From NCBI GenBank assembly GCA_017552435.1, contig JAFZPZ010000045.1, forward strand, positions 1-52,886: a DNA stretch of 52,886 bases, read 5' to 3'. The notes below the pieces were generated by a model. That model was not told the DNA's origin. It did no database searches and worked only from the letters and a program-made list of their open reading frames with translations. Below are positions 4,341 through 51,980 of this stretch, one piece after another. The position numbers were made by a program, and so were the translations under genes. The stretch comes from Bacteroidaceae bacterium. GTDB lineage: Bacteria > Bacteroidota > Bacteroidia > Bacteroidales > Bacteroidaceae. The stretch's first letter is position 1; every line of letters starts with the position of its first letter.

Positions 4341-4366
4341 TTCCCCCTAAAGGGGGATAGGGGGTC
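4341..4366 (-). repeat. C5/G5 palindromic element
   Basis: CCCCCTAAAGGGGG core followed by TAGGGGGTC. Intergenic copy. Confidence 0.85.
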
Positions 4367-4486
4367 AGATTTACAACTATATGATATTCAGGCAATTACC
4401 CCCCCCCTATTTCGGAGCACCGGAATCAACATAACATAAACGGCGCGAGCCGACTTGGTCTCTCTTCGGAGGGCACTTTTATTTTT

Positions 4487-4819
4487 ATGGTTGACACCCT
4501 GCTGCATTGGGCATACGCCCTTTGTGGCAGGTTTTTTTGTTGCCTGTTATTCCTCATCTTCCTTGCATCTTGCAGCAATGATGAGGTGCATTTCGTGAAG
4601 ATTAGCGAGTATTATGCCGAGTCGTGCCACCTGGACCAGGCGACGCAGGACAGTATAGTCCGTTTCGCGCAGAAGGTAGATGCCTTCGTTGCTGCGAACC
4701 CCCTGGCGAAGGAAGACCCGCTCTATGCTCGCATCCTGCATAACATAAAGACTTCCAGTTTCGACCCGGGCTTCATGCTCAATACCGATTGGAAAGACGA
4801 TGTAGAAAGTGGATTCTGA
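4487..4819 (+). CDS. Small lipoprotein, unknown function
   Basis: 110 residues. A hydrophobic stretch (residues 12-26) ends in the lipobox LASC, with Cys29 followed by SND, so this is probably a lipoprotein. The mature part is about 80 residues, acidic and helical, without a recognised domain. The charge pattern near the N-terminus is unusual, since few basic residues precede the hydrophobic core. Copy B of the promoter repeat lies about 190 bp upstream. Function unknown. Confidence 0.6.
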   Translation: MVDTLLHWAYALCGRFFCCLLFLIFLASCSNDEVHFVKISEYYAESCHLDQATQDSIVRFAQKVDAFVAANPLAKEDPLYARILHNIKTSSFDPGFMLNTDWKDDVESGF

Positions 4820-4822
4820 ATA

Positions 4823-5160
4823 ATACAAAAACCTAAAAAACCCTTTTCTGGAGTTTATGAGTTACACTCTCACGTTTTCAATCTGTCTGTCAGCGAATGC
4901 AAGTAAATTTGCCTTCTCTGCCGCCCATATCAAAAACAGCCTAACGGCCTAAACACCAGAAAAGAAAAACAATAAAAACCAACGATGTGATAAATGATAA
5001 ATTCTGTTTCATAATTATTTGTCGTTTAAAAAGTCGCCGTGAAGGCTGCGATTAAGCGAGAGCAGAGCCAAATCACATTTGAGCTATGCCGAGTGAAAGC
5101 AGTCTCGACCAATGGTCAGGGTGCCGCGACGAACTTGGCAAGATGCCAATAGGTAATTAA
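4823..5160. other. Gene-free interval with structured segments
   Basis: No coding sequence is supported here. Visible are AAAAACCT..CCCTTTT at 4825-4846, which resembles 52738-52760; an imperfect hairpin AGCCAAAT-CAC-ATTTGAGCT near 5066-5085; and a perfect TTGGCA/TGCCAA hairpin at 5134-5148. The order looks like a small structured RNA or an intergenic repeat. No promoter boxes are convincing. Confidence 0.35.
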
Positions 5161-5207
5161 TTTTTTTCATTATTCCCTCGCCTCCTGAGACAGGCCGCGA
5201 GGTTTTA

Positions 5208-5238
5208 GGACCCCCCAGCCCCCTTTAGGGGGAGATAA
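5208..5238 (+). repeat. C5/G5 palindromic element
   Basis: GGACCCCCCAGC, then CCCCTTTAGGGGGAG. It lies immediately before the small gene at 5247. Confidence 0.85.
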
Positions 5239-5246
5239 ATATAAAA

Positions 5247-5588: not shown

Positions 5589-5706
5589 AAAAAATACCCC
5601 AAACTCTTCGTCGGAAGGACGGGTTCCTTCTCGTTGAGTGTTTGTGTGACATGATTAGGGGGTAATCCCCGAAGTTGTGTTAGTGAGTTAATATTATAAG
5701 TTTGTC

Positions 5707-5738
5707 CCTCAGCGGTTTGTGAAAATAGCTGAGGTTTT
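5707..5738 (+). terminator. Intrinsic terminator-like hairpin
   Basis: CCTCAGC (5707-5713) pairs perfectly with GCTGAGG (5728-5734), followed by TTTTAA. It could end transcription from the 5247 gene. Confidence 0.55.
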
Positions 5739-5851
5739 AAAAGAAAGAGTAAAAGATACAAGATATATACGAACATTAAAACTGAAAATATAAAATAGTG
5801 AATATAGAATAAAAATAGTTAATTGAGTCTATAACATCCTTGACGAGACTG

Positions 5852-11304: not shown

Positions 11305-11330
11305 GGACCCCCCCTTAGGGGGAGCTAATT
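11305..11330 (+). repeat. C5/G5 palindromic element
   Basis: GGACCCCCCCTTAGGGGGAG, a shortened copy in the leader of the 11419 gene. Confidence 0.75.
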
Positions 11331-11418
11331 AATTCTCTCCTACACACACGCACACGTACATTCTTAAAATTATAAGATTATAAAATTAAAATATTGAAAA
11401 TATAGAATTAGAAAAGAA

Positions 11419-12875: not shown

Positions 12876-12911
12876 CTCCTCCCCTTTAACGGGGAGGTCG
12901 GGAGGGGTCTT
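12876..12911 (+). repeat. C5/G5 palindromic element
   Basis: CTCCCCTTTAACGGGGAG followed by GTCGGGAGGGGTC. It ends just before the ATG at 12913. Confidence 0.85.
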
Positions 12912-12912: not shown

Positions 12913-13371
12913 ATGAAAAAGTTATTGAAATCATTCAAGTCGAAGACGCATCTGTATGATGACAATTCGATTGTGGTGTCGCCACAGGCTGAGGGCGAAC
13001 CGACTCAGAGAGAGGTAAGGAAAGTGGGGAAGTCGAAACGGTACATCACCAACGGCAAGAGCCCACTGACGTGTGTAGAACTGAAGTGCCCGGAGGACGT
13101 GGCGGACAAGGCTGCCTTCTTCAGGGGGGAGCTGGCAAAGCTGACGAAGGACATGGAGATAGAAGCACCGCAGATGCCGGACGGCGAGTTCCTGCTGAAC
13201 AAGGACAACCTGAAGGTCTGCCTGGCGGCAGGGGAACAGAAGGTGATGGCATGGCTCACCTTCGAGGCAAAAGGACTGCTGGAGATAAGGAGAGAGCTGT
13301 ACTCATTAACCAGTGAGATAGACAAATGTTTTGTTATCAACGAAGCTTCGGTCTGCCCACAGAGACCGTGA
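12913..13371 (+). CDS. Hypothetical protein of the phage-like cassette, 152 aa
   Basis: A basic N-terminus (KKLLKSFKSKTH) is followed by a mixed, charged protein without a recognised domain. Its end overlaps the DUF3987 gene: by 46 bp if that gene starts at ATG 13326, or by a GTGA overlap if it starts at GTG 13368. The tight coupling suggests joint function. Confidence 0.5.
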   Translation: MKKLLKSFKSKTHLYDDNSIVVSPQAEGEPTQREVRKVGKSKRYITNGKSPLTCVELKCPEDVADKAAFFRGELAKLTKDMEIEAPQMPDGEFLLNKDNLKVCLAAGEQKVMAWLTFEAKGLLEIRRELYSLTSEIDKCFVINEASVCPQRP

Positions 13372-15809
13372 CACTGGAACAGTTTCGGGCGCTAATTTCG
13401 GCGCCTGAAACTTTCAGAAAAGTAAGAGAGGCCCGCGAGGCGCTGGCTCGTGGCGACAAGAAGACCTACGATGCCAAGAAGAAGGGGCTGCCACTGGCTA
13501 TCTTTATCGGCACCTTCGAGGAGTCAGTAAAGGTGTTTGAGAACAAGAATACTGGCAAGAAGGAGGAGGTGACAGGCTGCTGGCGACTGCAGAAGCATTG
13601 CAGGCTGAACGGGTTGTGCGTGATTGACTTTGACCATGTGGACGAAGCCTCCCCCAGCCCCTCCGAAGGAGGGGTGAAAAGGACGATAAAAGAGATTTGG
13701 GATGAAGCCTATGCTCGATTGTCTGAGGAGGACAAACGGAGGATTCTCTTTGTGTTCGTGACGCCGTCGGGGCATGGATTGAAGGTGGTGTTTATCGCTG
13801 ATGCTGCGGTAGGCAACCTGATAGACAACCAGATTGTCTTCTCACGGAAGCTGGGGCTGAACCCCGATGAGGCCTGTAAGGATGCCAGCAGAGGGGCCTT
13901 CATGACTACGAGTGATGACATTATCTTTATTGACGAAGAAAGACTGATTACGTATGAGAATGAAGAATTTGGTAAGAAGTATGATGAGGAATACCATGCT
14001 GGGAAGAGCGGAGCGACATGCCAGAGTGAAGAACGAAGAGTGAAGAGTGAAGAATGTAACTGTCAACTGTCAACTGTCAACTGTCAACTGGAGTATCACG
14101 GCATTCCTTACCAGAAGATAGTGGAGGCTTGGATTGGTGACAAGAAGGTGGAGCCCGGCGACAGGCATCGGACAAGTCTGGTGCTGGCCGACCACCTGCG
14201 ATACATTACGGATAACGACCCTAAGCTGATAGAACAGATCCTGCGAGAGACGCCCTTCGTGAAGGAGATTATCGAGGAACGTAACGAGGATGTATCAGCT
14301 ACCGTGAAAAGTGCGCAGGGCTATGAGTTCCTGAAGGGGATTCCGAAGAGGATGCGGGAAGCGCTGGCAAGTGCTGGAGCACTTGGAAGTGAAGAGTTAA
14401 GAGTGAAGAGTGAAGAATTTGCTGCCGCCAATGCAGACAACGATGTTTATGGGGTATTGCCTCTGGATGAATGGGCAAAAGAGCTGCTGGAGATGGCAGA
14501 GTATTACCCCTGTATGAAGGAGCTGTTCCTGAATGTGCATCCCTACAAGCTGCCTGCGGTGTGGTTCTCAAGTGCGGCATTGTTCGGCACGCTGATGACG
14601 AGGGCCTACTACCACTTCTGGTTCGACCCGGAGATTATGAGGCGGCTGAACTACTGCATCTTCATCATCGGCGACCCGGGTGCGGGTAAGAACATTGTGG
14701 AGAAATTCTACAAGAAGATTGCCGACCCGATGATTCAGGCCGACAAGTGCCTGATAGATGCGGTGAACCGCTACAAGGACAGCCGCACGGAACGCAGCAC
14801 CAGCACGAAGGCCCAGAAGGGCGATGCCCTGAAAAGACCTGTAGTGGGTATCAGAGTGCATCCGGCCCGCACGGCTACTGGTGAGTTCATCCGCCACATG
14901 AATGCTGCCATCGAGACGGTACAGGGCGTGCCCCTGAACCTGCACATGTTCTCGTTCGATGCCGAGCTGGACAACGTGACGAAGCAGAACAAGGGCGGTG
15001 ACTGGAAGGACCGCGAGATACTGGAGCTGAAGGCGTTCCACAACGAGGAGGACGGACAGATGTATGCCAATCAGGAGTCTGTCACCGGCATGTTCAATGT
15101 CTTCTGGAACTTCATCTATACCGGCACCCCTTACGCCCTGCACCGCAAGGTGAACCAAAGGAACTTCGGTACGGGTATGAGCACCCGCCTGGCTGTGATA
15201 CCTCTGCCCGACATGGGGCTGGCAAAGCGGCACCAAGAGGTTGATCCCAACGCCAACGAGATGCTCCGCACATGGGCTTACCGCCTCGACAAGGTGGAAG
15301 GGGAACTGCCTATAGAACCCCTGAACGATGAGACCTACGACTGGCAATCGGCACATCTGGAAATCGCGGAGTTCAACGGCGACAGGGCCGACAAGACCCT
15401 GCTGAAACGCATTCCGTACTACGGCATCGGCATTTCGCTGCCCTTCATCCTGATGCGCCATTGGGACGAGTGGCAGGAGCAGAAGACCCTGACGATGGAC
15501 GACAGGGACCGCCGTCTGTGCCGTCTGGCAATGGAAATCCAGTACAGATGCCAGCAGTTCTTCTTCGGCGAAATGGCCTACAACTACTTCGAGAACCAGA
15601 ATAAGGAGTTCGTGCAGCGCCGCCGCACCACCCGCTACGACGATTGCTTCCGCAAACTGCCCGATGAGTTCAAGACCCAGCAGTTCATGGAAGTGTTCGG
15701 GGTCTCGAAGTCAGCAGCATCGAGAGCAATACTACGCTTTCAAGAAGAGCATGTGGTGGAAATCGTTAAATATGGATTGTATCGAAAACTAGTACAATCG
15801 CTACCATAA
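13326..15809 (+). CDS. VirE-N (BT4734-like) / DUF3987 primase-helicase-like ATPase
   Basis: 827 residues from ATG 13326 (GTG 13368 is an alternative). Residues 15-220 match the VirE N-terminal or BT4734-like domain: GLPLAIFIGTF, LCVIDFDHV and FVTPSGHGLKVVF, an archaeo-eukaryotic-primase-like pattern. Residues about 378-720 form the DUF3987 ATPase, with Walker A IIGDPGAGKN (about 447-456) and an acidic Walker-B-like FSFDAELDNV. Such proteins occur in Bacteroidetes mobile elements and phages, probably in DNA replication. Three low-complexity insertions are repeats in frame: a palindromic element at 13648-13677 (SPSPSEGG) and heptamer arrays at 14024-14090 and 14388-14419. The frame stays open, so the gene is probably functional. 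The endolysin-like gene follows after 72 bp. Confidence 0.8.
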   Translation: MFCYQRSFGLPTETVTLEQFRALISAPETFRKVREAREALARGDKKTYDAKKKGLPLAIFIGTFEESVKVFENKNTGKKEEVTGCWRLQKHCRLNGLCVIDFDHVDEASPSPSEGGVKRTIKEIWDEAYARLSEEDKRRILFVFVTPSGHGLKVVFIADAAVGNLIDNQIVFSRKLGLNPDEACKDASRGAFMTTSDDIIFIDEERLITYENEEFGKKYDEEYHAGKSGATCQSEERRVKSEECNCQLSTVNCQLEYHGIPYQKIVEAWIGDKKVEPGDRHRTSLVLADHLRYITDNDPKLIEQILRETPFVKEIIEERNEDVSATVKSAQGYEFLKGIPKRMREALASAGALGSEELRVKSEEFAAANADNDVYGVLPLDEWAKELLEMAEYYPCMKELFLNVHPYKLPAVWFSSAALFGTLMTRAYYHFWFDPEIMRRLNYCIFIIGDPGAGKNIVEKFYKKIADPMIQADKCLIDAVNRYKDSRTERSTSTKAQKGDALKRPVVGIRVHPARTATGEFIRHMNAAIETVQGVPLNLHMFSFDAELDNVTKQNKGGDWKDREILELKAFHNEEDGQMYANQESVTGMFNVFWNFIYTGTPYALHRKVNQRNFGTGMSTRLAVIPLPDMGLAKRHQEVDPNANEMLRTWAYRLDKVEGELPIEPLNDETYDWQSAHLEIAEFNGDRADKTLLKRIPYYGIGISLPFILMRHWDEWQEQKTLTMDDRDRRLCRLAMEIQYRCQQFFFGEMAYNYFENQNKEFVQRRRTTRYDDCFRKLPDEFKTQQFMEVFGVSKSAASRAILRFQEEHVVEIVKYGLYRKLVQSLP
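13648..13677 (+). repeat. In-frame C5/G5 palindromic element in the DUF3987 gene
   Basis: CCTCCCCCAGCCCCTCCGAA then GGAGGGG, read as SPSPSEGG at about residues 109-116. Confidence 0.8.
14024..14090 (+). repeat. In-frame heptamer arrays in the DUF3987 gene
   Basis: GTGAAGA-type units are followed by five CAACTGT units. They are read as SEERRVKSEE and CQLSTVNCQLE between the VirE-N part and the ATPase part. Confidence 0.85.
14388..14419 (+). repeat. In-frame heptamer array in the DUF3987 gene
   Basis: GTGAAGA units read as GSEELRVKSEEF, just before the ATPase domain. Confidence 0.8.
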
Positions 15810-15831
15810 CTATTCGGGATGTGTGGGGAAG

Positions 15832-15858
15832 TTTCCCACTTTCCCACTTTCCCACTTT
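15832..15858 (+). repeat. TTTCCCAC octamer array
   Basis: Three TTTCCCAC units followed by TTTTGACATTTAT, the same order of array and flank as at 267-315. It lies in the leader of the endolysin-like gene. Confidence 0.8.
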
Positions 15859-15881
15859 TGACATTTATAAATTTAGAACTT

Positions 15882-16463
15882 ATGGAAAATGACAAATTAC
15901 CTCGCGGGATTAGGAACAATAACCCGCTGAACATCCGCCTGTCCTGGCGGAACAAATGGAAAGGGCAGAGGCCGCCTTCACCCTCTCCCACGGGAGAGGG
16001 ACGGGGTGAGGCCGCCTTCTGCCAGTTTGAAAGCATGAAATGGGGCATACGTGCCGCATACATCCTCATCCACAACTACATCCACATCTATGGTCTGCAC
16101 ACCATACAGGCCGTCGTGACGCGATGGGCGCCTGTGGTGGACCGCAACGACCCGGACAGCTACGCTGCGAGGGTGCGGGAGCTGATGGAGAAAAGCTCCG
16201 TGAACTACCGCCTGGACTTCAGCAACGGCGCAGACATGGTGCGACTGGTCTATGCGATGGCAATCGTGGAGAACGGAACCCGAATCAGCTACCACGCCAT
16301 CATGGAGGGCTATGCTATGGCCTGTGCCGACATGAACATAGAGCCGCACCTGGGCGGCATCGACTCGTACGTATATGAGGATATGGACGTGACGCAGGCT
16401 GCCATGCAGCATGACTTCGAAAAATACAGGAAAGAGTATGAAGAATTAAAAATTCAAAATTAG
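15882..16463 (+). CDS. Endolysin / lysozyme-like phage protein
   Basis: 193 residues from ATG 15882; the reading frame is open upstream, but only through the octamer array. The start LPRGIRNNNPLNIR..W..KW, then FCQFESMKWGIRAAYILIHNY, TIQAVVTRWAPVVDRND and SYAARV, is the pattern of small phage lysozyme-like proteins such as PRD1 P5-type lytic factors. It should cut peptidoglycan in lysis or DNA entry. No signal peptide is present. A palindromic element in frame (15974-16011, SPSPTGEGRGEA) separates the first block from FCQF, and the C-terminus (LKIQN) is made by a heptamer array. It is the last gene of the cassette. Confidence 0.7.
   Translation: MENDKLPRGIRNNNPLNIRLSWRNKWKGQRPPSPSPTGEGRGEAAFCQFESMKWGIRAAYILIHNYIHIYGLHTIQAVVTRWAPVVDRNDPDSYAARVRELMEKSSVNYRLDFSNGADMVRLVYAMAIVENGTRISYHAIMEGYAMACADMNIEPHLGGIDSYVYEDMDVTQAAMQHDFEKYRKEYEELKIQN
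15974..16011 (+). repeat. In-frame palindromic element in the endolysin-like gene
   Basis: CACCCTCTCCCACGGGAGAG then GGACGGGGTGAGG, a diverged C-run/G-run palindrome read as PSPSPTGEGRGE. Confidence 0.7.
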
Positions 16464-16495: not shown

Positions 16496-16564
16496 AATTA
16501 AAATGAACTATCCCTGCTGCGGAAACTACGAGTTCTGTGGCGGGGATTTTTGTATAATTTTCCT

Positions 16565-16602
16565 GATTTCCTTGTGTGGGATTGAAAAATTTCGTAATTT
16601 TG
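16565..16602 (+). promoter_or_regulatory. Promoter-bearing repeat, copy C
   Basis: Third copy of the 38-bp repeat and the best promoter of the three: CTTG, 20 nt, TAATTTTG (16595-16602). It should drive the gene at 16681 with a leader of about 70 nt. Confidence 0.65.
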
Positions 16603-20733: not shown

Positions 20734-20735
20734 AA

Positions 20736-20819
20736 TGTCGTTTGGTCGTTTGGGGGATTGGTCGTTTGGTCGTTTGGTCGTTTGGGGATTGTCAATTATT
20801 AATTGTCAATTGTCAATTC
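20736..20819. repeat. GTCGTTTG octamer array plus TGTCAAT heptamers
   Basis: Five to six GTCGTTTG/GGTCGTTT units (20738-20790) are followed by TGTCAAT heptamers, filling the gap between GH95 and aroB. Confidence 0.85.
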
Positions 20820-27806: not shown

Positions 27807-27841
27807 GGACCCCTCCAAACCTCCCCGTAGAGGGGAGGCTT
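27807..27841 (+). repeat. C5/G5 palindromic element between folA and thyA
   Basis: GGACCCCTCCAAAC, CTCCCCGTAGAGGGGAG. Intergenic copy. Confidence 0.85.
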
Positions 27842-28497: not shown

Positions 28498-28643
28498 CTT
28501 GCGCTCCAGTAGGTCTTCGGCTGAAGCCTCAGGCGGCAAAGCCGGACGTCTCAGGCGCAGGCGGAGTCTCGCTACGCTCGAAGTTAACAACGATACCACT
28601 GGGCGGTAGCAAATTCTTCTTCGCAAAGCTCAGGCGCGGGCGG
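28498..28643 (+). repeat. GC-rich interspersed repeat, second locus
   Basis: 28498-28563 is nearly identical to the unit at 594-660 (one G to A change in CTCCGGTAGG). A partial unit (TTCTTCGCAAAGCTCAGGCG) follows at 28615-28643. Between them CGAAGTTAACAACG echoes GAGTTAACGAAGTT at 28476-28489. Confidence 0.8.
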
Positions 28644-28671: not shown

Positions 28672-28699
28672 GTTCCCCCTAAAGGGGGCTAGGGGGTCT
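28672..28699 (-). repeat. C5/G5 palindromic element
   Basis: TTCCCCCTAAAGGGGGCTAG then GGGGTC. It ends at the stop codon of the esterase gene. Confidence 0.85.
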
Positions 28700-33297: not shown

Positions 33298-34011
33298 ATG
33301 AAAGAATTCAAGTTTAAGATAGGTGGTCAGGATTATGCTGCCACCGTTGAAGACCTCAAGGACGGACAGATGAAGGTTACCGTCAATGGTCAGACCTATC
33401 AGGTAGAAGTGCCTCACAAGAAGGCCAAAGGACCTCATGTCGCTATGGCGCCCGCAGCCGCAGAAGCACAGACAGGCGGTCCGAAGAACGTCAACAGCGA
33501 ACTGCCAGGTACTGTTACGAAGATTAATGTTGCCGACGGTCAACATGTGAAACGCGGAGATGTGCTGCTCGTTATCGAGGCTATGAAGATGGCCAACGAT
33601 ATTGTGAGCGAAGTAGATGGCACCGTTCAGCGTGTAGCCGTTACTCAGGGACAGAGTGTCAATCAGGGTGACCTGCTTGTCGAGATGGTTGCTGATTTCG
33701 TTGCCGCAAAGGCAGAGGTTACTCCGAAGCCTGCTCCCGCTGCTCCTGCTCCAGTAGCTGCAGCCGCTCCTGCTCCGACACCTGCTCCCGCAGCTGGCGC
33801 AAAGACCGTGACTGCTCCTCTGCCTGGCACTGTCACCAAGGTGACTGTCAAGGTGGGCGACAGCATCAATGCCGGTGACACCGTACTCCTGATGGAGGCA
33901 ATGAAGATGGAGAACAACATCACAGCCGAGTTCGGTGGTACCGTCAAGGCTATCCTTGTTGAGGCCGGTGCTCAGGTACAAAGCGGACAGGCACTGGTGG
34001 AACTGGATTAG
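33298..34011 (+). CDS. Biotin carboxyl carrier with two biotinyl domains
   Basis: 237 residues. A short N-terminal domain (1-45) precedes the first biotinyl domain (about 65-132), with the biotin-accepting Lys97 in EAMKM. A Pro/Ala linker (about 142-168) leads to a second biotinyl domain (169-237) with Lys203 in EAMKM. Family members in related bacteria usually have one site and about 140 residues, so this gene has an internal duplication. Two biotin arms could raise transfer capacity between carboxyltransferase and the beta subunit. Confidence 0.88.
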   Translation: MKEFKFKIGGQDYAATVEDLKDGQMKVTVNGQTYQVEVPHKKAKGPHVAMAPAAAEAQTGGPKNVNSELPGTVTKINVADGQHVKRGDVLLVIEAMKMANDIVSEVDGTVQRVAVTQGQSVNQGDLLVEMVADFVAAKAEVTPKPAPAAPAPVAAAAPAPTPAPAAGAKTVTAPLPGTVTKVTVKVGDSINAGDTVLLMEAMKMENNITAEFGGTVKAILVEAGAQVQSGQALVELD

Positions 34012-34044
34012 GACCCTCTCTAACTCCCCCATAAGGGGGAGAAA
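34011..34044 (+). repeat. C5/G5 palindromic element
   Basis: GGACCCTCTCTAAC, TCCCCCATAAGGGGGAG. It begins at the biotin-carrier stop codon. Confidence 0.85.
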
Positions 34045-34069: not shown

Positions 34070-35383
34070 ATGAAAAAGATAATTAATCTCCTCCCCTCTA
34101 CGGGGAGGTTGGGAGGGGTCCTGGCCTTCCTTTTGCTCCTTATGGTTTCAGTTCCTACCTTCGCTGCTGACTTCAACCTGGAGCAGGGTCTGAACGACTT
34201 TCTCAACGAGATGGGCTTCGTTACCTTCTTTATAAAGGAAGAGGGTTGGAAGAATGCCGTCATGATTCTCATCGGTTGCTTCCTGCTCTGGCTGGCTATC
34301 AAGAAAGAGTACGAGCCCTTGCTGCTTCTGCCCATCGCCTTCGGTATGATTCTCAGCAATCTGCCCGGTGCTGGTCTCTTCGACTCTGATATGTGGAACA
34401 ATGAGTTCCTGAATCCTGCAAGCGAGAATTACCATAGTTACGGCTATATTATGGCGCACGGAGGTTTGCTCGATATCCTCTATATCGGCGTGAAGGCTGG
34501 CGTTTATCCCTGCCTCATCTTCCTCGGCGTAGGTGCGATGACTGACTTCGGTCCGCTGATTGCCAACCCCAAGAGTCTCCTGCTCGGTGCTGCTGCACAG
34601 CTTGGTATCTTCGCTACCTTCCTGGTAACTCAGATTGACTTCTTTGGGTTTACAGCTGCCCAGTCGGCTTCTATCGGCATCATCGGCGGTGCTGACGGTC
34701 CTACAGCTATCTTCCTGACCTCTAAACTTGCTCCAGAATTGCTTGGTCCCATTGCCGTTGCTGCCTATAGCTACATGGCTCTGGTGCCCGTCATCCAGCC
34801 TCCCATCATGCGTGCCCTTACAAGCCAGAAGGAACGTAAGATTCGCATGAGTCAGCTCCGCACGGTTAGCAAGAAGGAGAAGATAATCTTCCCCATCGTC
34901 GTTGCTATCGTAGTGAGCCTGATTGTTCCCTCTGCCGGAACGCTTATCGGCTGTCTGATGCTCGGCAATCTTTTCAAGGAGAGTGGGGTGGTAGAGCGTC
35001 TGAGTAAGGCCGCCCAGAACGAGTTGAACAACATCGTGGTTATCATGCTTGGTGTGACTGTTGGTGCTACTGCAACCGCAAGTGCTTTCCTCAACTTCCA
35101 GACGATTGCTATCCTCTGTGTCGGTATCGTTGCCTTTGGCATCGGTTCTGCCGGTGGTGTCCTCATGGCCAAGTGTATGAACCTCTTCCTCAAGGAGAAG
35201 ATTAACCCGCTCATCGGCTCTGCCGGCGTGAGTGCAGTTCCTATGGCTGCCCGCGTCAGCCAGTCTGAAGGACAGAAGGCCGATCCGCGCAACTTCCTCC
35301 TGATGCACGCTATGGGCCCCAATGTGGCTGGTGTCATCGGTAGTGCTGTTGCAGCAGGTATCCTGCTCAGTTTCTGCAGTTAA
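34070..35383 (+). CDS. oadB: Sodium-pump decarboxylase beta subunit
   Basis: 437 residues, many membrane helices. Core motifs are present: [18 protein letters not shown], the signature [10 protein letters not shown] with the Na+-site Asp, and a C-terminal [14 protein letters not shown] segment. It decarboxylates carboxybiotin and exports Na+. The extra N-terminus contains a hydrophobic leader ending VPTFAAD. A palindromic element at 34088-34122 supplies [10 protein letters not shown] at the start of this leader, so a repeat has been built into the signal-like region. The start at 34070 precedes the element; no better start is seen. The last base of its stop codon is the first base of the xseA ATG. 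Confidence 0.92.
34088..34122 (+). repeat. In-frame C5/G5 palindromic element in the oadB leader
   Basis: CTCCTCCCCTCTACGGGGAG then GTTGGGAGGGGTCC, read as [12 protein letters not shown]. Confidence 0.85.
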
Positions 35384-36726
35384 TGACGAATGAGACCCTG
35401 ACATTATTCGAACTGAACAGTCTGGTTCGCGAACTCATTGAGACGCAATTCGATGAGTCGTATTGGGTTGTCGGTGAATTGAGTGATGTCAGCACGCCTG
35501 CCTATGGTGGGCACTTTTACGGCGAGCTTGTCCAAAAGGATGAGCTCGCTGATCGTATCATAGCTCGAGCCCGCATCACTTGTTGGGCGCGAACCTACGG
35601 AATGTTGCGTCTGAGGTTCCAAAAGGAGTCGGGCGAGACACTTCGCAAAGGCTTGCAGGTGAGGCTTTTGGTGAAGATCAACTTCCACGAACAATATGGT
35701 TACTCACTCAATGTACTTGATATCGATTCCACATTCACCCTGGGCGACCTCGCGAAGAGGCGTAGGGAGATACTCCTGCAATTGGAGAAAGACGGCATCC
35801 TGCACGATAATCAGGAGCTTCCTTTGCCTCGGTTGTTGAGACGCATAGCTGTCGTAAGCAGTGCCACAGCAGCCGGTTATGGTGACTTTTGCAACCAATT
35901 GGAGCAGAACGAATACGGCTTCCATTTCGATGTACAACTCTTTCCTGCCGTGATGCAGGGTGAACAGGTTCCGGAAAGCATCATCTGCGCCCTCGAAGCA
36001 ATACTCTCCTCCCCCGCCGAGGGGGAGGTCGGGAAGGGGCTTCCCTTTGACCTCGTAGTCATCATCCGTGGAGGAGGAGCCAGTAGCGACCTGAGTGATT
36101 TCGACAGCTACGAACTGGCTGCCTGCATCGCTCAATACCCCCTGCCTGTCCTTACTGGAATCGGACACGAACGGGATGAGACGGTCCTCGACTTTGTGGC
36201 ACATACACGAGTCAAGACCCCGACTGCTGCTGCTGCCTTCATTATCGATCATCAGGCCGGAGAGGCAGCATTGCTCGATGACCTCTATCAGCGCATCACA
36301 CGTTCGGCAGAGGAGAGAATCCTACGCGAGAAGCAACGATTAGAGCGGCAACAGGCCGTCCTTCCCTTGCTTTTTGCAAATTTCTTTCAAGGGTTGTGGA
36401 ACCGGCTTGTACTTGCCAGTCAGCGTCTGACGGGTAATGCAATACAACGCCTCGAACGCGAACCAGGCAGGCTTCTGCTGCTTCACCAAAGGCTCAATTC
36501 TTCCAGCTCCCATCGCATCGAGCGCGAGCAGCATAGGTTGCAGCTCATGAAGCAGCGAATGGATTCCCTCGATCCCAGGCTCCTGCTGAAGTGCGGCTAC
36601 AGCATAACAACCTGCGGCGGAAAAATCGTTCGTAGCATTGAGGGCCTTGTAGAAGGAGATGTCTTGACAACCAGTATAGAAAACGGAGAAATATATTCAA
36701 AGGTAGTATTATGCAAGAAGAACTAA
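35383..36726 (+). CDS. xseA: Exodeoxyribonuclease VII large subunit
   Basis: 447 residues. It starts with an OB-fold (about 5-105; VVGELSDV..GHFYGELVQK, TCWARTYGML), then the catalytic core with RRIAVVSSATAAGYGDF, VVIIRGGGASSDLSDFDSYELAACIAQYPLPVLTGIGHERDET and a coiled C-terminus rich in Arg/Leu/Gln. With XseB it degrades single-stranded DNA. A palindromic element (36007-36040) adds SSPAEGEVGKGLP at about residues 210-222, before FDLVVIIRGGGA. xseB overlaps the end by 16 bp. Confidence 0.95.
   Translation: MTNETLTLFELNSLVRELIETQFDESYWVVGELSDVSTPAYGGHFYGELVQKDELADRIIARARITCWARTYGMLRLRFQKESGETLRKGLQVRLLVKINFHEQYGYSLNVLDIDSTFTLGDLAKRRREILLQLEKDGILHDNQELPLPRLLRRIAVVSSATAAGYGDFCNQLEQNEYGFHFDVQLFPAVMQGEQVPESIICALEAILSSPAEGEVGKGLPFDLVVIIRGGGASSDLSDFDSYELAACIAQYPLPVLTGIGHERDETVLDFVAHTRVKTPTAAAAFIIDHQAGEAALLDDLYQRITRSAEERILREKQRLERQQAVLPLLFANFFQGLWNRLVLASQRLTGNAIQRLEREPGRLLLLHQRLNSSSSHRIEREQHRLQLMKQRMDSLDPRLLLKCGYSITTCGGKIVRSIEGLVEGDVLTTSIENGEIYSKVVLCKKN
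36007..36040 (+). repeat. In-frame C5/G5 palindromic element in xseA
   Basis: CTCCTCCCCCGCCGAGGGGG then AGGTCGGGAAGGGG, read as SSPAEGEVGKG. Confidence 0.9.
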
Positions 36727-43100: not shown

Positions 43101-44126
43101 AAGACCCTTGTTCGCCCGAATATTTGGGCACTTGAACCATACAGTTGTGCCCGCGATGAATTCAAGGGTAGGGAGGCACATGTCTTTCTTGATGCCAACG
43201 AAAATCCCTACAACGACCCAATTAACCGCTATCCCGATCCGTTGCAGGAAAAACTGAAGGAGCGTCTGGCACCTCTCAAACATGTGCGTCCTTCCCAGAT
43301 ATTTCTCGGCAACGGAAGCGACGAAGCCATCGATCTGGTTTATCGCATCTTCTGCAATCCGGGCAAAGACAATGTGGTGGCAATTGCTCCCACCTACGGT
43401 ATGTACAAGGTGTGTGCTGATATCAATGATGTGGAGTATCGGGGCGTACCCCTCGTCGATGATTGGCAGCTTGATCCTAAGGCGTTGCTCGCTGCTGCAG
43501 ATGCCCATACGAAGGTTATTTGGATTTGCTCGCCCAACAACCCGACAGGTAACGATTTCTCGCGCGAGGCCATTCATGAGGTGCTGACAAACTTCGTCGG
43601 CATAGTTGTGATAGACGAAGCCTATTCTGACTTTTCTATGCAGCAGCCTTTCCGCGATATTCTCGACAACTATCCCAACCTCATCGTTCTCAATACTTTC
43701 AGCAAGGCATGGGCTTCGGCAGCGATACGTCTGGGTATGGCATTTGCCAGCGAGGAGATTATCGGACTCTTCAATAAAGTGAAGTACCCATATAATGTCA
43801 ATCTGCTCACTCAGGAGAAAGCTTGTACCCTGCTTGGGGATTACGCACTCATTGATGGGTGGTTGGCACAAATCAGACGTGAACGCGAGCATGTCTTGCC
43901 TGCTCTTAGCGAATTGCCCATCGTCCTGAAGGTGTTCCCAACGGATGCCAACTTCGTCCTCGTCCGCGTGACCGACGCCAATCGTATTTACCGCTATCTG
44001 ATAGATCAAGGCATTGTGGTGCGTAACCGTCATCGTGTCCAGCTGTGCAAGGATTGCTTACGTATCACTATCGGAACGCGCCAGGAGAACAACGAACTCT
44101 TGGGGGCGTTGAGGTTCTATAAATAG
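43059..44126 (+). CDS. hisC: Histidinol-phosphate aminotransferase
   Basis: 355 residues from ATG 43059 (ATGA overlap with hisD); ATG 43086, where homology begins, is an alternative. [56 protein letters not shown] and the PLP lysine in [15 protein letters not shown] are present. It forms histidinol phosphate. The first residues come from repeat sequence. Confidence 0.96.
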
Positions 44127-44185
44127 ACCCCCTGACCCCCTTTAGGGGGAATAATGTTCAATGTTCAATTATCAATGTTCAATGA
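44126..44185 (+). repeat. C5/G5 palindromic element plus AATGTTC heptamers
   Basis: GACCCCCTGACCCCCTTTAG then GGGGAATAATG at 44126-44155 follows the hisC stop. AATGTTC-like heptamers (44152-44184) lead into the hisB ATG. Confidence 0.9.
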
Positions 44186-45246
44186 ATAGAATTCTTTTCA
44201 TCGACCGCGATGGCACTATTCTTCGTGAGCCTGAGGACGAACAGATAGACAGCTTCGAGAAGTTCAGCTTCGTACCAGGAGCCATCAGTGCCCTGCGCTT
44301 CTTGCGTCAGCACACCGATTTCCTCTTCGTGATGGTGAGCAATCAGGACGGGCTTGGCACAGACAGCTATCCCGAAGACACTTTCTGGCCCACACAGAAT
44401 CTCATGCTCGACATCCTGAAGGGCGAGGGTGTTATCTTCGATGCCATCCACATAGACCGCAGCTTTCCAAAAGACAATCTGCCAACACGCAAGCCAGGAA
44501 CTGCGATGCTAACTGACTACATGACAGGTGACTACGACTTGACTGGCAGCTTTGTCATTGGTGATAGAGAGACGGATGAGAAGCTTGCTGAGAACCTCGG
44601 TTGCCGCAGCTTCATCCTTAGTCCGGAGATGACTTGGGAGAAGATTGCCGAACTCATCTTCGCTGGAGAGCGGATAGCAAGCGTAAAGCGTACCACAAAG
44701 GAGACAGACATTGAGGTGCGTGTCTGCTTGGACGGCAACGGCAAGAGCGACATAGAGACTGGTCTCGGTTTCTTCGACCACATGCTGGAGCAGATTGCCA
44801 AGCACGGTATGATTGACCTCTACATCCGATGCAAGGGTGACCTGAACGTGGATGAGCACCACACAATAGAAGATGTGGCACTCGCTTTGGGCGAGTGCAT
44901 CAAAAAGGCTCTCGGTGACAAGCGGGGCATAGAGCGCTACGGCTACTGCCTCCCTATGGATGACTGCCTGTGCCAGGTTGCACTTGATTTTGGAGGTCGT
45001 CCCTGGCTCGTCTGGGATGCAGAGTTCCATCGCGAGAAGGTGGGCGAGATGCCGACAGAGATGTTCCTGCACTTCTTCAAGAGCCTCTCCGACAGCGCTG
45101 CTATCAACCTCAATATCAAGGCAGAAGGGCAGAACGAACACCACAAGATAGAAGGCATCTTCAAAGCCTTTGCTCGCAGCCTCAGAATGGCTGTAAGGCG
45201 AGACATTACGCACTTCCAACTGCCTTCTAGCAAAGGAGTGCTATAG
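44182..45246 (+). CDS. hisB: Bifunctional histidinol-phosphatase / imidazoleglycerol-phosphate dehydratase
   Basis: 354 residues from ATG 44182. The N-terminal HAD-type phosphatase (about 1-165) has FIDRDGTIL and VIGDRETD. The C-terminal dehydratase has [28 protein letters not shown] and [15 protein letters not shown], a metal-binding His cluster. The fusion is the enterobacterial/Bacteroidetes type. It completes hisG-D-C-B; other his genes are not in this window. Confidence 0.96.
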
Positions 45247-45298
45247 ACCCCCTAACCCCCTTTAGGGGGAATAAATGTTCAATGGTTAATGGTCAATA
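45245..45298 (+). repeat. C5/G5 palindromic element plus heptamers
   Basis: GACCCCCTAACCCCCTTTAG then GGGGAATAAATG (45245-45276) and AATGTTC/AATGGTT units. The last overlap the recR start. Confidence 0.85.
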
Positions 45299-47660: not shown

Positions 47661-48092
47661 TTATTTCTTCTTGTTGATGTAGAGGTAATAGCTGATGCCG
47701 CGACGGACATTCTCGATGACGGCTTCCGATGAGACAGTAGCCCCGGTGACGGCGTCCACCTTTGCCTTTTCGGCAGTCTTGACGGGCATTCCGTTCCATT
47801 TCTTCATCAGCCCTTTCTCTACCATATCGAAGTATTTGGGAGTCTCTTCGTTTTCCAGGGACTCGATGCGTTGCACTTTGTCGCCCTTTATATAAATCTT
47901 CACAGGCGTCTGGCCCACATAGCCTTCGATGTCCGTAGCAAGGGATGTGGTGTTGATGATGGTGACGTCCTTCTGCTTCGTCATAACGGGGTCATCGGTC
48001 GTCTGACTTGTCAGAAAGAGGAAGGCGGCAATAAGCAACAGCCCCCTTTTGATTCCCCCGAGGGGGAAAAACTTACGAATTGTATAGTTCAT
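47661..48092 (-). CDS. Membrane-anchored FMN-binding domain protein
   Basis: 143 residues. One hydrophobic helix (about 15-29) precedes a small domain with YVGQTPVKIYIKGDKVQRIE and DAVTGATVSSEAVIENVRRG, the FMN-binding signature of RnfG/NqrC-like proteins, in which FMN is bound through a Ser/Thr phosphoester. A palindromic element (48041-48070) supplies FPLGGIKRG at residues 9-17. It follows the aldo/keto reductase by 10 bp and may pass electrons to it. Confidence 0.78.
   Translation of the reverse strand: MNYTIRKFFPLGGIKRGLLLIAAFLFLTSQTTDDPVMTKQKDVTIINTTSLATDIEGYVGQTPVKIYIKGDKVQRIESLENEETPKYFDMVEKGLMKKWNGMPVKTAEKAKVDAVTGATVSSEAVIENVRRGISYYLYINKKK
48041..48070 (-). repeat. In-frame C5/G5 palindromic element in the FMN-binding gene
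   Basis: GCCCCCTTTTGATTCCCCCG then AGGGGGAA, read as FFPLGGIKRGL at the N-terminus. Confidence 0.75.
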
Positions 48093-48102
48093 GTTCTTTC
48101 TC

Positions 48103-49506
48103 CTATGCTTTTTTCTTCCTCGTCATCTCCACGAGTTTGCTCATGTGTGTGGAGATAGGCAGTTGCTGCGGGCACTTTTTCAGGCATTCGCCGCAGTCCT
48201 GACATTTATTGGCCCTAGCAGCAGCGGGGATAGCGGCGCGATAGGCCTCGAGATAAGCTACGCGCTTTTCTTCGAAGTCGGGTGCAGAGCTGTCGGGTAG
48301 GGGCAGTCGGCCCTCTGTCACAGCCTTGTTGTAGAATGCGAAGTTGCCCGGAATATCCACACCATGCTTGCAGGGCATGCAGTATGCGCAGGTTGTGCAT
48401 CCAATTGTCGGAAGGCCTGCCATCTTGTCGGCTATGCGGGCCAGCAGTTCGTTATCTACCGTTGTGCAGGGTTCGAGAGGCGAGAATGTTTCCAGATTTT
48501 CCTTCAGGTGTTCCATACGGTTCATGCCGCTCAGGGTGGTCAGTACATCGGGATGCGAAGCTACCCAGCGGAAGCCCCAACGTGCTGGTGTATCGTCCTT
48601 GCGTGCACGGCTCAGCTGTTCGCGTACATCATCTGTTACGTTCGCAAGGGAGCCTCCTCGCAGGGGTTCCATGATGACAGCCTGGATGCCCAGTTTCTCG
48701 AGCCTGCCATACAGGTACTCGGCATTTGCATCGCCGCGACCGCGTCTGCCGCCTCGCCTTTGGGCATAATTCCAGTCGAGGTAGTTCATCTGGATCTGCA
48801 CGAAGTCCCAATGGTACGTGTCGTTGTTGTCGAGCAGCCAGTCGAACACCTTCACGTCACCATGATAGCTGAAGCCGAGGTGTCGGATGCGGCCTGCCTT
48901 GCGCTCCTCCAGGAGGAAGTCCAGCAGTCCGTTGTCGATGAATCTGCTTTTCAGGTTATCCAGACCGCCGCCGCCTACGCTGTGCAGCAGATAGTAGTCG
49001 ATGTAATCAACCTGCAGTTTGCGGAACGAGTTCTCGTACATCTCCTTCGACTTTTCGAAGGGCCAGAGTGCCTCGTTCTGGTTAGACATTTTTGTGGCTA
49101 CATAATAGCTTTCGCGGGGGTGGCGACTCAGGGCCAGACCTGTAGCCGTCTCGTTCTGACCGCCGCCATACATCGGTGCTGTGTCGAAGTAGTTCACGCC
49201 GTGAGCCAATGCATAGTCCACCAACTCGTTTACCTGTTCCTGTTCGCGTGGCAGACGCATCATGCCGAAGCCCAGCAGCGAAATCTTCTCGCCTGTGCCG
49301 TTCTGGGTGCGATACGTCATGGACCCCTCTGAATCTCCCCCTAAAGGGGAGACTTCCCGACCAATGTCCCCCTTTAAGGGGGAGTTAGAGAGGGTCTGCA
49401 GAGGCCCTATTGCCATCAGCGACAATGCTGTGGCGGAACCTAAACCCAATCGCTCCAGGAACTGACGGCGATTGATCTCGTGTGCTTCATTGCATTTCCT
49501 TTTCAT
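48103..49506 (-). CDS. Tat-exported aldo/keto reductase with 4Fe-4S C-terminal domain
   Basis: 467 residues. NRRQFLERLGLGSATALSLMAIG is a twin-arginine-type leader. The aldo/keto reductase barrel runs about 65-350 (LLGFGMMRLP, FDTAPMYGGGQNETATG with the catalytic Tyr, IDYYLLHSVGG). The tail has CTTCAYCMPCKHGV and CQDCGECLKKCPQQLPI, cysteines for two 4Fe-4S clusters. Two inverted palindromic elements (49321-49398) form residues about 38-62 between leader and barrel. It is probably a periplasmic reductase working with the FMN-binding protein; the substrate is unknown. Confidence 0.85.
   Translation of the reverse strand: MKRKCNEAHEINRRQFLERLGLGSATALSLMAIGPLQTLSNSPLKGDIGREVSPLGGDSEGSMTYRTQNGTGEKISLLGFGMMRLPREQEQVNELVDYALAHGVNYFDTAPMYGGGQNETATGLALSRHPRESYYVATKMSNQNEALWPFEKSKEMYENSFRKLQVDYIDYYLLHSVGGGGLDNLKSRFIDNGLLDFLLEERKAGRIRHLGFSYHGDVKVFDWLLDNNDTYHWDFVQIQMNYLDWNYAQRRGGRRGRGDANAEYLYGRLEKLGIQAVIMEPLRGGSLANVTDDVREQLSRARKDDTPARWGFRWVASHPDVLTTLSGMNRMEHLKENLETFSPLEPCTTVDNELLARIADKMAGLPTIGCTTCAYCMPCKHGVDIPGNFAFYNKAVTEGRLPLPDSSAPDFEEKRVAYLEAYRAAIPAAARANKCQDCGECLKKCPQQLPISTHMSKLVEMTRKKKA
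49321..49398. repeat. Two facing C5/G5 palindromic elements in the aldo/keto reductase gene
   Basis: GGACCCCTCTGAATCTCCCC then CTAAAGGGGAG (49321-49352) and TGTCCCCCTTTAAGGGGGAG then TTAGAGAGGGTC (49365-49398) are inverted relative to each other. Together they are read as TLSNSPLKGDIGREVSPLGG..EGS. Confidence 0.9.
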
Positions 49507-49564
49507 AATGTACAGATGTTTTCTATTTAGACATTTTATAACTGAAAAGGTTTAATCCGGGTCT

Positions 49565-51889
49565 TTAATCGCTGAGGGAGTAGGGCTTGCCGGTCGTGAC
49601 GCAACGCTTCTTGTTTGGCGTGCTGCTCATGACGAATTCCAGCGTGCCGCCCTGCATGATGTCCGAGTGCGTCAGATAGAGCTTGTCGTAGGTCTTGCCG
49701 TTCAGCCGCACCTCCTTCACGTAGCGCATTTTGTCGCTGACACCAGGTGCCTTGATGGTAAACAGCTTCCCGTTTGGAAGGGTGAGTTTGCACGAGGGAA
49801 CGTAGGGAGCTCCGAGGACATATTGGTCGCTGCCCGGGCAGACGGGGTAGAAGCCCATCGCCGTAAAGATGTACCAGGCCGACATCTGGCCGCAGTCATC
49901 GTTGCCGTGCAGGCCATCTATGTTGTTGATATACATGCGGTTCATTATCTCGCGCAACCAATACTGAGCCTTCCAGGGCTGTGAGGTCCAGGCATAGAGG
50001 TAGGGGATGTGGTGACTGGGTTCGTTGCCGTGAACGTATCCGCCCAGCAGGCACTCTTCCTCGATGTCCTCGTTGTCCTCGTAGTACTTCTTGTCCAGAG
50101 GTTCTGCGAAGAGGTTGTCGAGGCGTTCGATGAACTTCTTGTCGCCTCCGAAGCACTCAATCATGCCCTTCACATCGTGGGGTACATGGAAGGAATAGTT
50201 GGCGCTGTTACCCTCGATGAAGCCTTCGCCGTAGGTTTGCAGGGGAGAGAAGTCCTTTTTCCAGCTGCCGTCTTTGTACTTGGGGCAGGCCAATCCGAGG
50301 GCGGGATTGAAGACATTGCGGTAATTGAGAGCCCGTTTCTTGAACGTCTCGGCCATTTCTGCGTCGCCTGCATCGATGGCTGCCTGATAGATGGTCCAGT
50401 CGTCATAGGCATACTCCAGGGTATTGCTGGCGCTGGTGCCGCAGTGGTCGTAGGGAACGTAACCATACTGGATGTAGTCGGTGAGGCCCTCCATCCACTT
50501 GGAGTTGGCAGTCGCCTTCATCGCAGCGAGCATGGCCTTCTTGTCCTTGATGCCCAGTTTCTTGGCGACATCCGAAAGGACAGCTACGGCATGATAGCCG
50601 CTCATGCACCAGCCTTCGTTAGCCATCAGGTACCAGACGGGCAACAGGTCGAGGGCGCTCTGTTGCTGGATGCGTATCATGCTCTCGGCCATATCGGCGC
50701 CTTGTTTGGGTTTGATGAGGTTAAGCAGCGGATGCTCGGCGCGATAGGTGTCCCAAAGGGAGAAGATGGTGTAGTTCGTGAAACCGTCGGCCTGATGAAT
50801 CTCCATATCGTTGCCGCGATACTTCCCATCGACATCCATATAGACAGATGGGTTGATCATCGTGTGATAGAGCGAGGTGTAGAAGAGCGCCTTCTGGTCG
50901 TCGGTGCCCTCGATTTCCAGTCCTGTCAGCTCCTTCGTCCACTGTTCTGTTGCGCGTTGCTTGACCTGGTCGAAGCTGAGGCCTGCCGTTTCTGCGCGCA
51001 GATTGGCAAGGGCTCCGCTCTGGCTGACGGCAGAGAGGGCTACCTTGATGGTGAGCTGTCGGTTGGCGGGCAGGTTGCAGCTGAAGTAGGCGGCAATCTC
51101 GCGGCCCGCCATATCGGGGAAGTTGTGGTAGATGTCGTTCTTGCGCCAGAAACCGCTGTACTTCATCCGTTGCTTGTCTTTGTAGCCGTACTGCTGGATG
51201 GGTTCGGACAGCGAGATGGCGAAGTAGGTGTAGTTCTGGCGGGCCCATCCGTTCGTGATGCGATAGCCGGTCAGCAGCGTGTCATTCTCTACGCGGAGGT
51301 AGCTCCAGAGCGTCTTGCCCTGATAGTTATAGATGCCGTGCCCCAGGTCGAGGATGAACTGGGCCTGCTGGGATGGGAACGTGTAGCGATGCACGCCAAC
51401 CCTCTGAGTTGCAGTCAGCTGAGCAAGGATGTCGTAGTCCTGCAACTTGACCTCGTAGTAGCCCGGAACGCATTTCTCCGTTTCGTGCGAGAAACGCGAG
51501 CGGTAGCCCGCTTCTGGATTGTCGGCTGTGCCCGGATTTGTTTGTATCTTGCCAGTTGTGGGCATAATCAGGATGTCGCCCAGATCGCTGTGTCCCGTAC
51601 CGCTCAGGTGCGTGTGGCTGAAGCCGACGATGGTCTTGTCGCGATGCTGATAACCGGCACAGTACTCATAGACTTTGCCCTGGTAGCGTCCGTCCACGTT
51701 GTGGGGAATCGTGTCCGTCTCAGGGCTCAGCTGCACGATGCCGAATGGAACACAAGCTCCTGGGAACGTGTGTCCCATACCGTTTGTGCCGATGATGGGA
51801 TTGACGTAATCAATCACATTCTGTGAGTGAAGAATGCAAAAATGAAAAAAAGAAAAAATGAAGGCTGCGGATAGGAGATGTTTCTTCAT
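49565..51889 (-). CDS. Secreted GH92 alpha-mannosidase
   Basis: 774 residues; the signal peptide ends near ILHSQ. The family start is VIDYVNPIIGTNGMGHTFPGACVPFGIVQLSPET. Later blocks are HVPHDVKGMIECFGG, GGYVHGNEPSHHIPYLY and GNDDCGQMSAWYIFTAMGFYPVCPGS, which hold Ca2+-binding and catalytic acidic residues. GH92 enzymes are Ca2+-dependent exo-alpha-mannosidases on N-glycans or yeast mannan. It lies 58 bp upstream of the aldo/keto reductase on the same strand. Confidence 0.95.
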   Translation of the reverse strand: MKKHLLSAAFIFSFFHFCILHSQNVIDYVNPIIGTNGMGHTFPGACVPFGIVQLSPETDTIPHNVDGRYQGKVYEYCAGYQHRDKTIVGFSHTHLSGTGHSDLGDILIMPTTGKIQTNPGTADNPEAGYRSRFSHETEKCVPGYYEVKLQDYDILAQLTATQRVGVHRYTFPSQQAQFILDLGHGIYNYQGKTLWSYLRVENDTLLTGYRITNGWARQNYTYFAISLSEPIQQYGYKDKQRMKYSGFWRKNDIYHNFPDMAGREIAAYFSCNLPANRQLTIKVALSAVSQSGALANLRAETAGLSFDQVKQRATEQWTKELTGLEIEGTDDQKALFYTSLYHTMINPSVYMDVDGKYRGNDMEIHQADGFTNYTIFSLWDTYRAEHPLLNLIKPKQGADMAESMIRIQQQSALDLLPVWYLMANEGWCMSGYHAVAVLSDVAKKLGIKDKKAMLAAMKATANSKWMEGLTDYIQYGYVPYDHCGTSASNTLEYAYDDWTIYQAAIDAGDAEMAETFKKRALNYRNVFNPALGLACPKYKDGSWKKDFSPLQTYGEGFIEGNSANYSFHVPHDVKGMIECFGGDKKFIERLDNLFAEPLDKKYYEDNEDIEEECLLGGYVHGNEPSHHIPYLYAWTSQPWKAQYWLREIMNRMYINNIDGLHGNDDCGQMSAWYIFTAMGFYPVCPGSDQYVLGAPYVPSCKLTLPNGKLFTIKAPGVSDKMRYVKEVRLNGKTYDKLYLTHSDIMQGGTLEFVMSSTPNKKRCVTTGKPYSLSD

Positions 51890-51915
51890 AATACATTATA
51901 ATTTATATATAAAAA

Positions 51916-51939
51916 AAGCTTCCTGTTATGAGGAAGCTT
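51916..51939 (-). terminator. Terminator of the HU gene
   Basis: On the minus strand AAGCTTCCT/AGGAAGCTT form a perfect 9-bp stem with a 6-nt loop, followed by a T-run (A-run at 51911-51917 on the plus strand). Confidence 0.9.
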
Positions 51940-51944
51940 GAATA

Positions 51945-51980
51945 GCCTCCCCATAGAGGGGGAGGTTTGGGAGATGGTCT
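51945..51980 (+). repeat. C5/G5 palindromic element
   Basis: CCTCCCCATAGAGGGGGAGG then TTTGGGAGATGGTC, between the HU stop codon and its terminator. Confidence 0.8.

Follow-up and report, generated by a model that had tools for sequence, protein, structure and literature searches.

How short C-rich palindromes come to lie both between genes and inside enzymes, and what could have carried them there, is the question raised by a stretch of 52,886 nucleotides from a Bacteroidaceae bacterium of the rumen (contig JAFZPZ010000045.1 of assembly GCA_017552435.1), hereafter the window. It forms part of a 3.50-Mb assembly of 129 contigs that is 88% complete, and it contains about 19 C-rich hairpins, each headed by a short tag, which belong to at least four families and occur inside genes as well as between them. 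These palindromes are inserted, dispersed, and variable between lineages, and genes for proteins with a DUF559 domain are bracketed by matching inverted copies of them. The reading preferred here, with a probability of roughly 70%, is that a tiny mobile unit exists, made up of a hairpin, a DUF559 gene, and a second hairpin, with the tags facing outward, and that the palindromes represent its ends together with its non-autonomous derivatives.

All families follow one plan, in which a tag is succeeded by a short linker, a C-rich stem, and the complementary arm. Aligned copies give GACCCCC-Y-NN-CCCCC-TTTA-GGGGG-A-R as the A-type consensus; the B-type reads GACCCTCT..CTCCC/GGGAG, the C-type CCTCCCCC..CCCCTCC/GGAGGGG, and the D-type GCCCCC..CCCCC/GGGGG. 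A preliminary description of the window, made from its letters, had counted about 22 copies of a single element; the tagged C5/G5 palindromes are real, but they differ in tag and stem between the families, and 19 are listed here. In the A-type, Y stands three bases before the stem and R at the second position past it. The two are complementary in 75 of the 77 copies of the own genome and in 92 of 94 copies in named assemblies, a covariation that reflects either an extra base pair of the hairpin kept under constraint or the joint amplification of two sub-lineages. Elements less than 100 bp apart have their tags outward in 16 of 18 pairs and inward in none (two of the 18 being overlapping calls), and the spacer in some tags-outward pairs contains host sequence, including the start of the next gene. 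The idea that such spacers belong to a fixed doublet of repetitive extragenic palindromic (REP) elements, a REPIN, is for this reason untenable for several pairs. At gathering thresholds Rfam matched only two tRNAs in the window and none of the hairpins, so that no Rfam family accounts for them.

Chance arising from composition alone is ruled out as the source of these repeats. The core CCCCCTTTAGGGGG has 128 copies in the genome (61 forward, 67 reverse) against none for the reversed control, and a broader finder of tag plus hairpin returned 12 matches in the window against 0, 0, 1, 0, 0, 0, 0, 0, 0, and 0 in ten first-order Markov simulations; the excess over composition is large, and both orientations are used, as first described. 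The broad GACC pattern was found in 49 of 120 genomes, namely the own genome, 46 of 72 sister genomes, and 2 of 47 genomes of other families, and its reversed control gave a single match, in one genome, over all 120. The exact A-type pattern occupies at least 95 stretches of named records. Among the 80 A-type matches listed, all belong to Bacteroidaceae, Prevotellaceae, Bacteroidales, or Bacteroidetes assemblies, many of them named for the rumen; two viral contigs carry the exact A-type element.

Clustering of the open reading frames (ORFs) near elements led to DUF559-like genes, a partner missed in the preliminary description. A search with DUF559 (PF04480) gave matches in 60 of the 120 genomes, and the sample analysed comprised 73 domains from 70 loci. 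Tagged hairpins stand on both sides with their tags outward in 52 of 73 DUF559 loci and in none of 159 control loci; within the genus the figure is 49 of 58. When left and right flanks are compared, a score of at least 40 is reached at 46 of 73 DUF559 loci, in 30 of 593 mismatched pairs, and at 1 of 103 other loci. Of the three full-length DUF559 genes in the own genome, L316 is flanked by the C-type, also present in thyA and in ORF 13326–15809, L318 by the B-type, and L317 by the GCCCCC type, so that the L316 and L318 units carry two families also seen in the window.

The sequence of the hairpin co-varies with the clade of the DUF559 protein. In Mantel tests, which covered 56 of the 73 units overall and 49 of the same-genus units, element similarity correlated with protein identity at r=0.60 across all 56, at r=0.55 within the genus, and at r=0.32 for same-genus pairs below 65% identity, with none of 5000 permutations as high in any of the three. 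On the DUF559 tree, the GAC label requires 9 changes against 19.2 when shuffled (0/500), the CCTC label 9 against 17.8 (0/500), and, more weakly, the GCCCC label 9 against 11.3 (19/500); tag classes were assigned by regular expression, and the 15 'other' and 4 'mixed' among the 73 units in the tree are not read as a class. The DUF559 genes bracketed by the A-type come from four sisters and form one clade, whose branch has 99% support. Across the 72 sister genomes, the GACC-type pattern and DUF559 occur together in 38, DUF559 alone in 3, the element alone in 8, and neither in 23 (p=5e-9, Spearman 0.70).

The DUF559 domain, of about 105 residues, resembles nucleases of the Vsr/EDxHD kind. All four proteins scanned matched the DUF559 profile at 105–115 bits, against a cut-off of 20.6, and the nearest sequences in the PDB are the endonuclease-like 3hrl (5.5e-23) and the catalytic domain of I-Bth0305I (3r3p, 3.3e-8). 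A predicted model with a mean local confidence (pLDDT) of 85.5 retrieved, with Foldseek, 3hrl at 6.7e-6 and I-Bth0305I at 1.2e-4, with a template-modelling (TM) score of 0.82 normalised to the target, and more weakly the Vsr protein of E. coli (5.6e-2). A Pfam scan of the short DUF559 protein revealed no additional DNA-binding region. The EDxHD family of homing endonucleases is described in PMC3943268, and in PMC9403480 a DUF559 gene is assigned to EDxHD.

Whole units, tags-outward pairs, solitary hairpins, and tag-like stubs all exist. Units measure mostly about 0.45–0.6 kb, and the same host loci hold DUF559 in several genomes. At the leuA–leuC junction, 20 of 30 loci have at most 50 bp, 3 contain a whole unit, the spacer is longer but has no unit in 5, and in 2 the genes are not adjacent; with four further loci included, the whole units found at this one junction belong to at least four element types, and four loci retain only tag-like stubs. 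Units also lie whole and in frame in LeuRS-like (L291, L340) and in NAD-epimerase-like and cupin-like (L295, L321) ORFs, and elsewhere in the phylum in MetH-like, LeuRS-like, and HsdR/HsdM-like ORFs, all host names being readings of the sequence made without a profile search. In-frame units in LeuRS-like or MetH-like ORFs of other Bacteroidota were noted at L291, L340, L383, L371, and L376. On contig C61 of the own genome, a guanylate-kinase-like ORF follows the DUF559 of L316 in frame; the arrangement is similar in L303 (G013), L300 (G047), and L310 (G020), the last with a stop inside the DUF559 frame. Where whole units lie in frame in LeuRS-, MetH-, or NAD-epimerase-like ORFs, the nuclease would be translated as part of the host protein.

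Comparison with sister genomes shows how the hairpins sit in the genes of the window. In thyA (26981–27802, minus strand), a C-type copy (27309–27336, plus) is in frame with a net gain of 24 bp, or 8 residues; among 30 aligned loci, own included, this insert is common to the own genome (G000) and G020, other inserts occupy the site in G013, G022, and G037, and 25 loci have no insert. The B-like copy in xseA (35383–36726, plus), at 36008–36040 on the minus strand, is likewise in frame and adds a net 27 bp relative to three sisters in a DNA-level alignment, with a different, larger insert at this site in G013. In ribE (30462–31097, minus), an A-type copy (30914–30938, plus) replaces a short loop for a net 6 residues (18 bp); it is missing in all 29 other loci (30 with the own), and a different insert, of 4 residues, is present in 3 of them. 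The N-terminus of oadB (34070–35383, plus) carries in frame a B-like copy (34090–34120, minus), as aligned with one homologue, and this is the second member of a tags-outward pair whose first, of B-type (34012–34041, plus), abuts the TAG of a biotin-lipoyl gene (33298–34011). The picture of palindromes lying both between genes and in frame in enzymes, variable between sister genomes, therefore stands, and homologues, where this was checked, do not carry the same residues at the same places. By eye, no target-site duplication is evident in ThyA, XseA, RibE, or leuA–leuC, where small losses of target sequence blur the ends.

At gene junctions the tag tends to come first. The following counts were obtained with a simple codon-usage gene caller in stretches picked for their A-type copies, so that A-type is over-sampled and the fractions are not genome-wide estimates: 42 of 99 copies lie inside coding sequence, the tag is at most 2 bp from the stop codon in 26 of 38 elements with the tag facing a stop, and it is at most 6 bp from the start in 7 of 19 elements with the tag facing a start. 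On the hairpin side of intergenic elements, the distance to genes varies widely. Between hisC and hisB, at most 20 bp separate the hisC stop from the position of hisB codon 10 in 16 of 30 loci; in the own genome the junction measures 61 bp and consists of an A-type solo (44126–44149, plus), whose tag G completes the hisC stop (TA/G), and an AT-rich spacer. The contact of intergenic copies with stops and starts that had been described thus reflects largely tag-first insertions, into junctions that are often nearly gapless in sisters at the two examined. Judging from ThyA, XseA, and RibE together with the stop-abutting and hisC–hisB data, element insertions survive at gene junctions or as net multiples of three.

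Beyond the genus the association becomes thinner. Across the phylum, with the own-genome locus dropped and 29 of 30 remaining, matched flanks score at least 30 at 16 of 29 loci against 22 of 400 mismatched comparisons, and at least 40 at 5 of 29 against 6 of 400, some matched segments being something other than a C-rich hairpin. Eight of 49 plasmid records were considered, and scores of at least 40 together with palindromes were found in Azospirillum, Sphingomonas (at sufB–sufC), Pseudanabaena, and Deinococcus. It is an evenly balanced question whether these cases together define a new class of mobile DNA, possibly extending across phyla, in which two tagged palindromes and one EDxHD/Vsr-like nuclease seed pairs and solos, in part in frame within essential enzymes, and also insert whole in frame. 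Phage spread of the elements is unsupported, since among 25 phage-contig relatives of DUF559 (of 38 viral relatives) matching palindromes were found in one, and the second-best viral flank score is due to AT-rich sequence. One viral contig (L394) has DUF559 between identical inverted palindromes (AGCCCCCTCAACTCCCCCCAAGGGGGAGCT).

If the palindromes are indeed the ends and remnants of a DUF559 unit, the DUF559 protein would recognise its cognate hairpin and cut or nick at or near it, and host repair would then fill a new break with a copy of the unit or of a deletion derivative. Such insertion would often lose a few target bases and leave no obvious target duplication; internal deletion of the unit would give pairs, and further loss solos, the order of derivation being conjectural. 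Survivors would be those at gapless gene junctions, with the tag abutting or supplying the stop, or those adding a net multiple of three in protein loops. Movement by DUF559 is what the sequence relationships suggest, and several observations weigh against it, chief among them the missing A-type DUF559 and the choice of new sites. A nuclease alone is no transposase, and both the route of the hairpin to new sites and the choice of site are unexplained; a consistent target-site duplication is not seen. The A-type, the commonest here, has no cognate DUF559 in its own 88%-complete assembly; the A-type-rich G053 (75% complete) has four DUF559 units, none of A-type; and G027, the strongest exception to co-occurrence, has 27 pattern matches and no DUF559 match. 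In other families, tags-outward bracketing holds at 3 of 15 loci and bracketing in any orientation at 6 of 15, the tags face inward at the Sphingomonas and Deinococcus DUF559 loci, and the scarcity of matching palindromes in phage-contig relatives points the same way. Only 4 of the 8 plasmid loci score at least 40, Picosynechococcus being weak (29), and three of the eight lack matching palindromes, one scoring 28 without a C-rich hairpin. The DUF559 tree rests on about 107 columns with many open forks, and near-copies aid the clustering of labels, while the Y–R covariation of the A-type could be explained by the two co-amplified sub-lineages.

Other explanations fit part of these data. The palindromes might be moved by other means, with DUF559 acting as a homing endonuclease and invading hairpin pairs already in place, as its resemblance to I-Bth0305I and its recurrence at the same host loci would allow; this is unlikely, given that at leuA–leuC no pair without DUF559 was seen by eye in the 28 of 30 junctions that were readable, the alleles being near-empty, a tag-like stub, longer without a unit, or a whole unit, and given that both ends of the unit co-vary with the protein. 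Ordinary REP or REPIN elements moved by a Y1 (HUH) REP-associated transposase (RAYT) have the same architecture of conserved 5' tag, hairpin, and tags-outward pairs, and Y1 genes exist in 10 of the 72 sister genomes at E<1e-10. The own genome, however, has no Y1_Tnp match, and in the sisters Y1 and element occur together in 8, Y1 alone in 2, the element alone in 38, and neither in 24 (p=0.31, Spearman 0.06). The 12 inspected Y1 genes are of the Y..QxxHH type, which resembles subclass 1.2 in PMC6006769; none is bracketed by GACC elements and several have other hairpins beside them, the Y1 gene of L084 having two GC-rich tagged hairpins upstream, on one side. A RAYT mover is thus largely refuted and very improbable. 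As a separate matter, the Y..QxxHH Y1 genes of the sister loci L083, L084, and L085 accompany different hairpins (GCCCTGAAAGGGC, CCCAGGGC..), perhaps a second association of hairpin and gene.

That the palindromes are regulatory hairpins at gene ends, terminators or stabilisers of mRNA, with DUF559 an unrelated neighbour, would suit the tags lying so close to stop codons; yet the many copies inside coding sequence, the use of both orientations, homologous junctions that are often gapless without a hairpin, and DUF559 bracketing against 0 of 159 controls make this extremely doubtful. Equally hard to credit is a DUF559 protein that binds the hairpins to regulate itself or to guard the genome in the manner of an addiction system, the spread of the hairpins being passive. 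In Caulobacter, according to PMC12907096, a DUF559 protein is behind a DNA-damage response when a methylase is missing, but a guard leaves the inverted matched ends, the whole-unit insertions, and the deletion derivatives unexplained.

Set beside known systems, the proposed DUF559 unit resembles REPtrons, the combinations of REP or REPIN with RAYT, in its tagged hairpin of 20–40 bp, tags-outward pairs, and high copy number, as well as in a gene flanked by inverted copies and the joint diversification of enzyme and hairpin (PMC3733652 and PMC6006769). It differs from them in its partner, a PD-(D/E)XK/EDxHD-like DUF559 protein instead of an HUH Y1 transposase, in its tags, which are GACC, GCCTC, and GCCCC and neither GTAG nor CGTC as in REP, and in the location of its copies, about four in ten of which lie inside genes in the sampled stretches. 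A survey of REP elements (PMC12306157) does not contain the words endonuclease, transposase, or RAYT in its main text. The parallel to Rickettsia palindromic elements, in-frame palindromes in protein genes (PMC3733652), was drawn in the preliminary description and holds in behaviour, the copies being dispersed, in frame, and variable among sisters; here, unlike there, a candidate partner gene is found, and the difference in sequence is taken on the word of that description. With the EDxHD homing endonuclease I-Bth0305I the unit shares the fold of the catalytic domain and the recurrent occupation of the same host loci. In contrast to what is described for I-Bth0305I in PMC3943268, no intron or intein is seen, the gene being free-standing or fused, with palindromic ends and many short derivatives. 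Miniature inverted-repeat transposable elements likewise derive from a larger unit by internal deletion and keep its inverted ends, but the unit here is without a transposase gene and its insertions are without a consistent target-site duplication. No link between DUF559 and palindromic repeats was found in the titles and abstract openings listed by searches of the open-licence literature in PubMed Central. Genomes are commonly littered with GC-rich palindromic repeats for which no mover is known, and a candidate enzyme makes their spread directly testable; DUF559, a Pfam family of unknown function, gains a likely biological context, and enzymes that accommodate 6 to 24 additional residues in frame, or a whole nuclease, are natural experiments.

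The remaining copies in the window extend these patterns. A-type solos are intergenic at 4342–4366 (minus, GACCCCCTAT-CCCCC-TTTA-GGGGG-A) and 5209–5232 (plus, GACCCCCCAG-CCCCC-TTTA-GGGGG), lie directly at a stop codon (TAA/GACC) at 28675–28698 (minus), and, between hisB and a recR-like gene so named from our own reading, complete the hisB stop with the tag G (TA/G) at 45246–45269 (plus); a degenerate A-type copy, GACCCCCCCTTAGGGGGAG, was recognised by eye at 11306–11324 (plus). B-like solos stand with the tag 3 bp off a called start codon at 12878–12909 (minus, GACCCCTCCCGA-CCTCCCC-GTTAAA-GGGGAGG) and with the tag adjoining the thyA start between folA and thyA at 27808–27838 (plus). A D-type copy, GCCCCCTTTTGATT-CCCCC-GA-GGGGG, at 48041–48066 (plus) lies within the FMN_bind open frame 47661–48092 (minus), in its N-terminal part. 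Within the open frame 13326–15809, the C-type copy at 13647–13674 (plus, CCTCCCCCAG-CCCCTCC-GAA-GGAGGGG) matches the flanks of the own-genome unit L316; a copy in this frame had been described before, but the DUF3987 label given to the frame is unconfirmed, a Pfam search giving no match at 1e-5. A CCTCACCCC-tagged hairpin, CCCTCTCCC-GT-GGGAGAGGG, within the open frame 15819–16463 (15981–16012, minus), is additional to the copies described before. Two copies attributed to an aldo/keto reductase are present, but as one B-type tags-outward pair (49322–49352, plus, and 49367–49396, minus) N-terminal of the reductase domain in the open frame 48103–49506 (minus), just upstream of the called gene start; the open frame continues through them, but their translation is uncertain because the called start lies directly after the pair. 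The copy ascribed to a GH95 gene is B-like and lies at 51946–51979 (minus) upstream of, and outside, what is a GH92 ORF, and the supposed folA copy is a different thing, a C-rich cluster (28099–28132) without a G arm.

This stretch of the folA ORF, at about 28099–28132, also contains CTTGCGCTCC, which belongs to a further repeat of about 68 bp (CTTGCGCTCC..TCTTCGGC..GGCAAAGCCGGACG) with three copies in the window (595–729 and 28498–28565). A 46-nt repeat (ATTTTCTCCGTTTTCCTTGTGTGGGATTGAAAAATTTCGTAACCTT-like) occurs at 514–559, 4254–4299, and 16556–16601, its copies being 85–91% identical to the reference copy, and arrays of the octamer TTTCCCAC lie in both orientations at 269–312, 466–505, and 15829–15868. 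Tandem 7- to 8-mers that are AT-rich or of the TGGTCGTT kind are intergenic, for example at 11362–11410, 20735–20804, and 44150–44184, and can follow hairpins, filling junctions that are nearly gapless in sisters.

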